NCBI GenBank assembly: GCA_021848095.1
Contig: JAJZMZ010000031.1
Location: forward strand, 1 to 35,190
Source: Microcaldota archaeon
GTDB taxonomy: Archaea; Micrarchaeota; Micrarchaeia; Micrarchaeales; CABMGC01
Length of the DNA stretch: 35,190 nt
Direction of reading: 5' to 3'
Shown here: positions 18,158 through 24,320 of the stretch, piece by piece
Numbering within the stretch: the stretch's first letter is position 1
Layout of the letters: each line of letters begins with the position of its first letter
Program-made: the position numbers and the translations under genes
Notes under the pieces: generated by a model
Databases searched by the model: none
The model's input: the letters and a program-made list of their open reading frames with translations, nothing else
What the model was told of the DNA's origin: nothing

Positions 18158-19057
18158 ATGGGAAAAACATTTGAAACGAAGAAAAGAATTTTAGATCTAC
18201 TAAAAAAGAAAAATATGACAGTTACTGAAATTTCTGAGCAACTTAATTTATCTCATGCTACTGTCAGTCAACATATGTCAGAGCTACAAAAAGCTGGAGC
18301 TATTGAAAAGATAGACAATGAGCATTATAAAAAAATGACCTACTATAAAGTAAGTGAAAATCAAAATGGATTTTTAATGAAGTATGCTCTTGGAATTATA
18401 GGGATAATACTGGTTTTAGGAGTAGTGATTTATTTAAGTGGAGTTTATACAAATACTCCAATTATTAATACATCTGGACAAAATCCACACAATACTTCTT
18501 CTAACTTAACTTCAAAAAATACAAATACAACATTAAAGAATGCAAGTATTATAAGTAATGAAACTCCAATTTCAGTATCTGGTTCAAGTGCTGCGATTGC
18601 ATGTCCAATGTTATTTTATGAATTAACAGGAAATGTAAAAAATAGTGGCAATTATACAGTAAATGGTACACAGAGTACTTACAAAGATTTTGTATTGGGT
18701 AAAAATACTACAACAATATTCAATATAGAAGAAAACTTTAGCAATGTGTTTAATGAAAGTGATTCCTCACTTTATAATAGACAACATTACGTACATATGA
18801 ATCAAATAAACAATGTTTTCAACTCTTCGGAGATTGTAGGAATTTATGGAAAATTCTCCGATACAAATTACACCGTAAAAAACAATGAAAGAATAAACTT
18901 TAATTTAACTGTACAAGTAGGAGAAAACGCAACTGAAAACACATACATGGTTCATATAGACGGGCCTTGCGGAGGAGGAGTAAAACCATTCTTAATAACA
19001 GTAGGAAATAAACCATACACAGGAAATGTAACGGCTACTGCAATGCCATACGCTTAA
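18158..19057 (+). CDS. membrane-anchored ArsR-like winged-helix regulator with extracellular domain
   Basis: N-terminal KRILDLLKKKNMTVTEISEQLNLSHATVSQHMSELQKAGAIEK (wHTH), one TM (YALGIIGIILVLGVVIYLSGV), then an Asn/Thr/Ser-rich ectodomain with Cys in AIACPM and GPCGGG. Confidence 0.75.
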   Translation: MGKTFETKKRILDLLKKKNMTVTEISEQLNLSHATVSQHMSELQKAGAIEKIDNEHYKKMTYYKVSENQNGFLMKYALGIIGIILVLGVVIYLSGVYTNTPIINTSGQNPHNTSSNLTSKNTNTTLKNASIISNETPISVSGSSAAIACPMLFYELTGNVKNSGNYTVNGTQSTYKDFVLGKNTTTIFNIEENFSNVFNESDSSLYNRQHYVHMNQINNVFNSSEIVGIYGKFSDTNYTVKNNERINFNLTVQVGENATENTYMVHIDGPCGGGVKPFLITVGNKPYTGNVTATAMPYA

Positions 19058-22256: not shown

Positions 22257-22898
22257 TTAAACAGATTGTGCCTTAAACTTAGCTATTTCTGAAACATAAG
22301 TTGTGTTACTACCTTTTAAACGAAATAGAGCCCATATATTTCCAGCTATATTAACTCCTTTTGGTAACTTGGGTTTTATTGCAGGTACAGTTACTGTTAT
22401 CTGTTCACTGTTTGATACATTTACTACATTTACAGATTCTGAAAGATTAACTATTCCTTCTTTAGGTGTTGGTGCTGTTGTTGAGTTAAGAAGAAATATT
22501 TGAGCTGAAGCCCAGTTTGCATACTGAGTTTCACTAAATGTAAAGGTAAGATTTCCAGTAGTACTTGATAAGAATAAATTTGAACAGGTAAAACCACCAA
22601 ACGCGGTGCAGTTTGAAAATATATTGTTTGTTGTAGTACTTTCTTGACAATTTCCAGGAGTAATGAGGGTTTGTGATTGTGAACATGAAACTGTTGTGTA
22701 ATATCCAGTAGTAACAACAGTTGTGACTACCAAAGAACTTGAGTTTCCTTTAATAGCAGTTAAGTTTGAAGAAGTATTAGAACTTTGTAAAGTAGTGGTT
22801 GTAACAGTTAACTTTGACAATGTATCTTGTATATAAAAGTACATTATTACTACAAAAAGAAGAAGAATAAAGTATGTGATTATAGCTTTCTTGTTCAT
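22257..22898 (-). CDS. single-TM, Ser/Thr-rich secreted protein
   Basis: N-terminal TM (AIITYFILLLFVVIMYFYI), Ser/Thr/Asn-rich ectodomain with CTAFGGFTCSN resembling the CxxxxGFxCSNP motif of the neighbouring pilin-like proteins. Confidence 0.6.
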   Translation of the reverse strand: MNKKAIITYFILLLFVVIMYFYIQDTLSKLTVTTTTLQSSNTSSNLTAIKGNSSSLVVTTVVTTGYYTTVSCSQSQTLITPGNCQESTTTNNIFSNCTAFGGFTCSNLFLSSTTGNLTFTFSETQYANWASAQIFLLNSTTAPTPKEGIVNLSESVNVVNVSNSEQITVTVPAIKPKLPKGVNIAGNIWALFRLKGSNTTYVSEIAKFKAQSV

Positions 22899-22950
22899 TT
22901 AATCAGTATAAAGTATCAATTAAGATATATAAAAATAACTATTTAACGAG

Positions 22951-23050
22951 TTAATTATAAAAAAAGAAAATGTGGGCTAAATGCCCAAAAAAGTTAAACT
23001 AAAAGGCGAACTGATTACCTTGCCGTTCCTGTAAATGTTCCTACTTCTGC
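22951..23050. repeat. direct repeat copy 1 (3' end and terminator region of 23015-23704)
   Basis: ttaattataaaaaaagaaaatgtgggctaaatgcccaaaaaagttaaactaaaaggcgaactga...cctgtaaatgttcctacttctgc, near-identical to 23748-23846. Confidence 0.9.
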
Positions 23051-23704
23051 GTAATTTAATTGCCCACCTGGTGTTTTTGAATATGAAATCCATATTTGAC
23101 CTGAAATTCCACTTCCTATAGGAGCCTTGACGTTATTATACCATGCAGGTAAATTAATGGTAGATATTGAACCAGCGTACATAGTACCAATTATAATTGA
23201 TTGAGGTGCAGAAGTAGGGAATGGAGTTTGACCAGAATATGTTTCTAATTCAGTTGAGTTAAGGAATACTGCAGTTGCATTATAATAAGTAGAACCAGTT
23301 CCCAATGTTACAGATATTGTTGCACCATTAAATGTTGGATTACTACAAATAAAACCTGATTGTGCCACGCATGTTGTTGGAAGTGATGAACCTCCAAAAA
23401 CACCGAGATAGAAAAGTCCTGCTAAAATAAAGAAGATTGCTCCAACAACTATTACAATTGCCAAAACTATTAAAATAATTATAAGTAAACTTTTTTTACC
23501 CGAATCATTTGGTTTTTTATTCGAGTCAGCTTCTTCTGTTTTAATATCATCATTAGTTGTAGATTTATTATTATTATTGGTAGAAGAACCAGTATTTTTT
23601 TTAATGTTATTAAGTTTATTATTTATATCATTATCATTATTCCATTTAGAAGAGTTTGTGCTTTGGCCAGCAGAATCATCGTAATACGAAGACATTGTCA
23701 ACAA
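23015..23704 (-). CDS. chimeric pilin-ectodomain protein with cytoplasmic Asn/Lys-rich tail
   Basis: ~70 aa low-complexity hydrophilic N-terminus, long TM, then LGVFGGSSLPTTCVAQSGFICSNPTFNG... homologous to the ectodomain of 23811-24320. Confidence 0.7.
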   Translation of the reverse strand: MLTMSSYYDDSAGQSTNSSKWNNDNDINNKLNNIKKNTGSSTNNNNKSTTNDDIKTEEADSNKKPNDSGKKSLLIIILIVLAIVIVVGAIFFILAGLFYLGVFGGSSLPTTCVAQSGFICSNPTFNGATISVTLGTGSTYYNATAVFLNSTELETYSGQTPFPTSAPQSIIIGTMYAGSISTINLPAWYNNVKAPIGSGISGQIWISYSKTPGGQLNYAEVGTFTGTAR

Positions 23705-23747
23705 ATAATTACCAAAATATTTATTAAAACATTTTTTATAAAATTAA

Positions 23748-23846
23748 TTAATTATAAAAAAGAAAATGTGGGCTAAATGCCCAAAAAAGTTAAACTAAAA
23801 GGCGAACTGACTAAGTTGCCTTTCCTGTAAATGTTCCTACTTCTGC
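23748..23846. repeat. direct repeat copy 2 (3' end and terminator region of 23811-24320)
   Basis: ttaattataaaaaagaaaatgtgggctaaatgcccaaaaaagttaaactaaaaggcgaactga...cctgtaaatgttcctacttctgc. Confidence 0.9.
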
Positions 23847-24320
23847 AAAGTTTGTTGATCCTCCGGATGTTGTTTCGTATGAAATCCAGATTTGACCAGA
23901 TATCCCTGTTCCTAGTGTTGCCTTTGCTGAGCTTGAGGTCCATGCTTGTACCTTAGCTGAGTAAGTTGATCCTGCAGGCATAGTTGCTGCTACAATATTT
24001 TGTGTAAGTGCTGAAGGGAATGATGATGAAGCTGCTGAAAATGTTGCTAATTCACTAGAGTTAAGAAATACTGCATTTACATTATAATAAGTAGAACCAG
24101 AGTTTTGTCCTATTGTAAAAGCTATGTTTCCACCGTCGTATGTTGGATTACTACAAATAAAACCAGATTGTGCTACACATGTTGTTGGAAGTGTTGAACC
24201 CCCGAATATTCCAAGTTCGAAAAGCGCTACTAAGACTATAGCTATGATCAATATGGCCCAACCATATGTCATAAGATACTCCATAGCGCTTTGTCCTTTA
24301 AATGATTTCATATCTATCAC
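23811..24320 (-). CDS. archaeal class III signal-peptide pilin-like protein
   Basis: MKSFKGQSAMEYLMTYGWAILIIAIVLVALFELGIFGG: QSAMEYLMTYGWA class III signal peptide and hydrophobic segment. Confidence 0.85.
   Translation of the reverse strand: MIDMKSFKGQSAMEYLMTYGWAILIIAIVLVALFELGIFGGSTLPTTCVAQSGFICSNPTYDGGNIAFTIGQNSGSTYYNVNAVFLNSSELATFSAASSSFPSALTQNIVAATMPAGSTYSAKVQAWTSSSAKATLGTGISGQIWISYETTSGGSTNFAEVGTFTGKAT

Follow-up and report, generated by a model that had tools for sequence, protein, structure and literature searches.

A chimeric protein with a pilin head and a different N-terminus encoded beside a class III pilin gene in a Micrarchaeota genome

The gene P0001 encodes a chimeric protein, in which homology to the adjacent pilin P0002 breaks at the end of the membrane helix. 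The architecture and origin of P0001 are well supported. Specifically, duplication appears to have placed the 3' half of the neighbouring major-pilin gene (helix end, ectodomain and 3' flank) downstream of another N-terminus, made up of a hydrophilic tail and an ordinary membrane helix. The protein would span the membrane, its tail facing the cytoplasm and its pilin head exposed outside, and would stay there, outside the filament, where retained head-to-head contacts could let it anchor or cap the filament base. We infer membrane retention, pilus docking and anchoring. By analogy, and with a probability of about 0.48, we propose that P0001 is a membrane-tethered, non-polymerising pilin head acting as a static anchor or base partner of the pilus.

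The window, the whole stretch of DNA analysed here, is an entire contig (C13, 35,190 bases, 31% GC) of a Micrarchaeota MAG with a genome of 811 kb and 91% completeness. The neighbours of P0001 in the window are pilin paralogs, an M50 protease gene and housekeeping genes; no pilus-assembly genes were found in its neighbourhood. A type IV pilus is plausible, as genes for two secretion ATPases, a two-domain T2SSF protein and an A24 peptidase homolog lie elsewhere in the genome. The type IV pilus platform protein (TadC/PilC), encoded elsewhere in the genome, belongs to a family distinct from P0001. A separate plus-strand gene of the window (18158-19057), kept in genomes G001 and G002 beside a SIMPL-domain gene, combines an ArsR-type HTH, a membrane helix and an extracellular domain, and is a candidate one-piece membrane regulator.

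Table 1. Coordinates and composition of P0001, its neighbours and anchored pilin heads in relatives
Feature	Position	Strand	Remarks
P0001, chimeric pilin-head membrane protein	23015..23695	-	226 aa from ATG 23695
P0001 hydrophilic tail, residues 1-66	23498..23695	-	predicted disordered (AlphaFold2 pLDDT 50-60) and cytoplasmic; KK directly before helix
P0001 membrane helix, residues 69-96	23408..23491	-	unrelated to pilin H-domain except last residues
P0001 all-beta pilin-type ectodomain, residues 101-226	23018..23395	-	invariant Cys109/Cys117, Gly199, Tyr205
DNA homologous to P0002 gene (helix end L91, whole ectodomain, 3' flank)	22951..23425	-	partner 23748-24233
P0001 3' flank, GGGC-ATTTA-GCCC hairpin and T-run	22951..23014	-	98% identical to P0002 flank 23744-23810
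P0002, class III (EppA-type, KG|QSAMEY) pilin	23811..24311	-	adjoins M50 protease gene, kept in relatives
P0003, second non-class-III ectodomain paralog	22257..22898	-	MNKKA, helix, Ser/Thr linker, ectodomain
Single tail or helix plus head			P0001, L052, L070, L102, L113, L051, two in L117
Helix, ~300 aa domain, head			L053, L071, L077, L216
Multi-span plus head	1483-2577 (in L050)		L050
Multi-span plus head	305-1432 (in L104)		L104
Multi-span plus head	1483-2514 (in L249)		L249 (A_DKE, cultured)

Architecture of P0001 and its relation to the adjacent pilin

The three minus-strand genes at 22257-24320 encode one ectodomain behind three different N-termini. The N-terminus of P0002, MKSFKG|QSAMEYLMTYGWA, carries an EppA-type class III signal, and P0002 is the probable stand-alone major pilin. 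Its named relatives are almost all from Micrarchaeota, including the cultured Micrarchaeum A_DKE. The pilin helix QSAMEYLMTYGWAIL is near-invariant among class III members, and is absent from P0001: all 13 aligned members agree at every residue of Q7-A19, and across 46 members the identity over this stretch is still at least 90%. Among class III proteins, L246 (A_DKE, an open frame of 5127 aa), L005 and L007 are very large multidomain proteins that begin with a class III signal and a pilin head, and L059, like some others here, has a leader of ~40 aa.

The ectodomains of P0001 and P0002 share 53% identity over 164 aa (E 2e-49, single comparison), well above what chance would give, which bears out the sequence-only reading that they are paralogous; ectodomains that do not align would have spoken against it. 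The ectodomain profile and the fold match likewise place P0001 with the class III pilin ectodomains. At the DNA level the two genes are 75% identical over 491 columns (blastn), and the similarity begins at 23425, at residue L91, three quarters of the way through the membrane helix. Past the stop codons, the 3' flanks are 98% identical over 63 nt and a terminator-like hairpin lies behind both; no further copy of this flank at such identity was found anywhere in the genome, and the flank of the pilin gene in G002, the closest relative, retains the hairpin alone. The synonymous distance of the ectodomains is 0.66 between P0001 and P0002 vs 0.79 between P0002 and the G002 pilin, indicating that the P0001 copy is about as old as the split from G002, or younger. 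These comparisons suggest that the 3' ends of P0001 and P0002 were probably exchanged recently. The ectodomain dN/dS is 0.41 for P0001 against P0002 and 0.34 for P0001 against the G002 pilin, the invariant Cys, Gly and Tyr residues are retained, and the ectodomain of P0001 thus appears to be under constraint. No gene was found at the P0001 site in relatives: G001, G002, G003, G005 and G006 have the pilin directly beside the P0003-type gene. A search of G002 found no copy of P0001.

AlphaFold2 modelling of P0001 (57 homologs) gives a disordered tail (residues 1-66, pLDDT 50-60), a helix at residues 69-96 and an all-beta ectodomain with pLDDT mostly >90 and two weaker loops. The best PDB fold match, and the only one with E <0.001, is 8fk7 (E 5e-4), a type IV pilus of the archaeon Pyrobaculum. 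The TM-scores of the fold matches are low, probably reflecting differing orientations of helix and head. Fold matches of the P0002 model are weak (E 0.015-0.08), with 8fk7 and archaellum FlaF/FlaG among them; the FlaF/FlaG matches (4p94, 5tuh and 5tug, E 0.04-0.08) appear only with the pilin model.

The reading frame of P0001 is intact and free of stop codons. The open frame proposed earlier (23015-23704) is confirmed, and its TTG start at 23704, which would add three residues, is possible but less likely than the ATG at 23695. Only one in-frame start codon lies between this ATG and the ectodomain, a TTG at codon 78 within the membrane helix, so no re-annotated start yields a class III signal; a downstream start with such a signal would have counted against the chimera. 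By sequence and by a start-codon scan P0001 lacks the class III signal, namely a short leader with G/A/S at -1 and, in the EppA type, Gln at +1 and Glu at +5. The conserved N-terminal H-domain helix, which packs the filament core, is also missing, as the match to the pilin runs only from L91. With the break at the helix end and both the motif and the pilin helix absent, the proposal that a tail before the TM helix has replaced the class III signal holds. A Pfam scan returned no class III signal family for P0001, but gave no hit for the pilin P0002 either. PF04021 missed all pilins of this genome, and its silence is therefore without meaning.

EppA-type peptidases require Gln at +1, and a broader prepilin cleavage rule calls for G/A/S at -1 and a charged residue at -2 (PMC4371748). 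KKS|LLI, at P0001 residues 67-69, nominally satisfies the broader rule. P0001 is nonetheless likely to escape processing by prepilin peptidase, and it is predicted to be membrane-tethered. The earlier suggestion of an unprocessed, tethered subunit therefore stands by prediction as to tethering and by absence of the EppA-type motif as to processing, qualified by the nominal fit of KKS|LLI to the loose rule.

The tail is about 66-69 residues long. Over 68 residues including KK it consists of 24% Asn, 15% Lys, 16% Ser and 12% Asp, with a net charge of 0, and from its basic residues it is predicted to lie on the cytoplasmic side. The equivalent tail of L052, a relative with 50-55% GC, has 7% Asn and 7% Lys. 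The Asn/Lys richness noticed earlier is thus correct as composition, but because of this comparison it is probably no feature in itself and accompanies the 31% GC genome. A search of the own genome for a tail donor returned weak low-complexity matches alone. Pfam matches of P0001 (Orf78, EssA and others) all fall below the cut-offs, lie on the tail and helix, and were discarded as composition matches. The G002 anchor protein L053 starts with ...SYYDDE, which resembles MSSYYDDS of P0001 and is a lead only. A motif YD[DNSLVEQ] occurs near the N-terminus in the tails of P0001, L052, L053, L071, L214 and L284. It is present in 6 of 14 such tails against a shuffle mean of 0.75, with none of 1000 shuffles reaching 6, but it was picked after sight of the sequences and is hence left out of the evidence. 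At L064 (751-2731, G000:C3), an A24 peptidase homolog adjoins a gene for a 342-aa protein with an Asn-rich tail, a helix and an extracellular part, which contains NYDDKN.

Pilin heads on other anchors in relatives

In relatives, the ectodomain is joined to four or more kinds of N-terminus that are not class III, the P0003 kind included. Neither this recurrence nor the third paralog, P0003, was part of the sequence-only reading. Loci were picked by similarity to the window's proteins, so the shares of N-terminus kinds are no census: a class III signal is present in 164 of the 191 distinct ectodomain proteins, another 24 are signal-less in the sense of having no EppA-type motif, and the sequences of 3 are truncated at the 5' end. 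Five of the 24 were set aside by judgement (L068, L096, L097 and L148 as fragments or truncations, L180 as a class III variant) and 19 remain, which fall into the three anchored kinds of Table 1 and the P0003 type.

The P0003 ectodomain matches the profile at E 4e-19, with the profile including one P0003-type relative. This type is present in all seven genus genomes searched (7/7) and adjoins the pilin wherever a contig shows both. A loose PibD-like rule might allow cleavage of L051 at MNKG|LQYF and of the P0003 type at MNKKA|I. The search for the P0001 architecture in relatives, proposed earlier, found its form of tail, TM helix and ectodomain in G005 (L052), G006 (L070) and G022 (L102). A scan of contigs with P0001 alone gave no confirmed relative because the tail patterns are not conserved, and the pilin alignment as query succeeded. 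The multi-span part of L050 is weakly Yip1-like, below the cut-off. At L117 (143-1166, G059), two adjacent overlapping genes each encode a signal-less helix with a pilin head.

On an ectodomain tree of 75 sequences and only 133 columns, whose bootstrap had not settled, the N-terminus changes 10 times by parsimony, and starred branches force at least 5 of these changes. AU tests reject a single origin as one clade for all signal-less forms (p=2e-5), for the anchored forms of the genus (p=2e-62) and for the three forms with a single tail/helix (p=0.03). The tree and these tests thus reject the idea of the swapped proteins as one old family. The N-terminus swap thus seems to have arisen independently several times in relatives, and gene conversion would produce the same tree picture as fresh capture.

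Some heads are closest to the local pilin. The G022 anchored head nests among G022's own pilins (100/99), and the head of L077, a long anchor of G003, is sister to G003's own pilin (100/100). L077 and its sister anchor L216 in G003 share a large domain at 69% identity and differ in their heads. The L077 ectodomain contains ...SLFELGAFN, left over from the end of the pilin helix (LFELGVFN), and L077 appears to have acquired a copy of the G003 pilin head including the helix end. L214 (G005, 358 aa) has the same tail, helix and ~300 aa domain as these two G003 proteins but no head. To judge from their sequences, L214 and the G003 sister pair look like the unfused and the freshly swapped states.

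These observations raise a wider and more tentative possibility, to which we lean less than to the anchor proposal for P0001. The Micrarchaeota pilin head may be a cassette, with recombination repeatedly copying a genome's own pilin head onto permanent anchors, so that stator-like or anchor proteins would be re-invented per lineage. The anchors would be of three sorts (tail and helix, helix and large domain, multi-span), and filament and membrane would, if this is true, bear matching heads.

Possible roles of P0001

P0001 lacks the class III motif (Gln at +1, Glu at +5) and the near-invariant pilin helix, and should for these reasons stay in the membrane and not enter the filament. A Haloferax pilin with a foreign helix forms no pili (PMC4371748), and P0001 accordingly would most likely remain in the membrane as a fixed head. 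The role of anchor or base partner is favoured by the precedent of ArlF/ArlG, archaellin duplicates without signal peptide that anchor the archaellum (PMC8978795, PMC8667602). Against this role, P0001 is missing at the same site in the relatives examined and from G002, and hence appears not to be an essential conserved part. The nominal fit of KKS|LLI to the loose rule, a neighbourhood free of pilus-assembly genes, the archaellum membership of ArlF/ArlG and a PDB-chain sequence search with no significant match likewise weigh against it. The main rival, which we consider somewhat unlikely, is a membrane-displayed adhesin: the same binding head would be borne on pilus and membrane, and P0001 would bind the surface of a nearby host or neighbour, with no need of contact with the pilus. 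In Haloferax, membrane-associated pilins promote a degree of adhesion even when pili are absent (PMC4371748), the hosts with which Micrarchaeota live in contact are Thermoplasmatales (PMC8975820, PMC5498576), and the presence of the head on a ~300 aa extracellular domain and on multi-span Yip1-like proteins fits a general display domain. However, Haloferax cells with the foreign-helix PilA1 failed to adhere (PMC4371748), and the P0001 head lies near the membrane on a very short stalk, beneath any S-layer.

Much less probable is that P0001 is kept as a donor copy, recombination with which diversifies the expressed pilin. The 98% identity of the flanks over 63 nt despite an ectodomain dS of 0.66 suggests recent exchange, and in G003 one of two sister anchors bears a pilin-copied ectodomain. 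However, P0001 has a full frame, its own anchor, an upstream region and constraint, while a silent donor needs neither anchor nor tail; the locus holds only one such copy; and selection on the terminator could account for the flank identity, although the G002 flank retains the hairpin alone. Marginally less probable still, P0001 might be an atypical minor pilin whose leader is very long; the A24 peptidase would cut it at KKS|LLI, and the product would join the pilus. This site fits the broad rule (PMC4371748), and the ~40 aa leaders of some class III proteins here, such as L059, offer a parallel. Against this, the Gln at +1 required by EppA-type enzymes and the Glu at +5 are missing from P0001, the motif is not retained in L052 (KKTR|IPLW) or L102 (NNR|WLII), and an unrelated helix stands in place of the near-invariant pilin helix, a foreign helix having abolished pili in Haloferax (PMC4371748). 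That P0001 is an assembly chimera or annotation artefact is largely refuted and very improbable. The window is one whole MAG contig with two similar genes in tandem, but the frame is intact, the copies are 25% apart in DNA and the architecture recurs in other genomes.

If P0001 is indeed a fixed membrane head, its kind would be a candidate class of surface proteins for DPANN archaea, whose attachment machinery is poorly known.

Comparison with archaellum stators and pilins

ArlF/ArlG (FlaF/FlaG) resemble P0001 as filament-subunit duplicates with a beta-sandwich fold, an N-terminal membrane helix and no class III signal (PMC8978795, PMC8667602), and P0001 itself combines a filament-subunit fold, such a helix and the lack of that signal. 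No homology to ArlF/ArlG was detected, the best hit of a PDB-chain profile search being at E 0.27 and Pfam giving none, and no arl operon with ArlI/ArlJ lies among the window neighbours of P0001. ArlF/ArlG are ancient, lie in the arl operon, have helices 15-20 residues shorter and divergent heads, and are parts of the archaellum rather than of type IV pili. P0001, in contrast, is a recent copy located next to a type IV pilin; its tail is long, and its form seems to have arisen independently in several lineages. The archaellum stator is believed to stem from duplication of a subunit and loss of the processing signal, too long ago to dissect, whereas the kind of change in P0001 would be recent, would have happened several times, and comes with DNA breakpoints, the ancestor-like L214 and matched pilin partners. 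The route from filament subunit to fixed component of the membrane is thus open to direct test here.

Class III (EppA-type) stand-alone major pilins share the ectodomain family of P0001, but P0001 has no KG|QxSxEY, no pilin helix, and 69 residues ahead of the hydrophobic stretch. PilA1Hybrid of Haloferax volcanii resembles P0001 in joining a pilin head to a hydrophobic domain of foreign origin (PMC4371748). It is man-made and had only its H-domain replaced as described, whereas P0001 is natural and also without a recognised cleavage motif.
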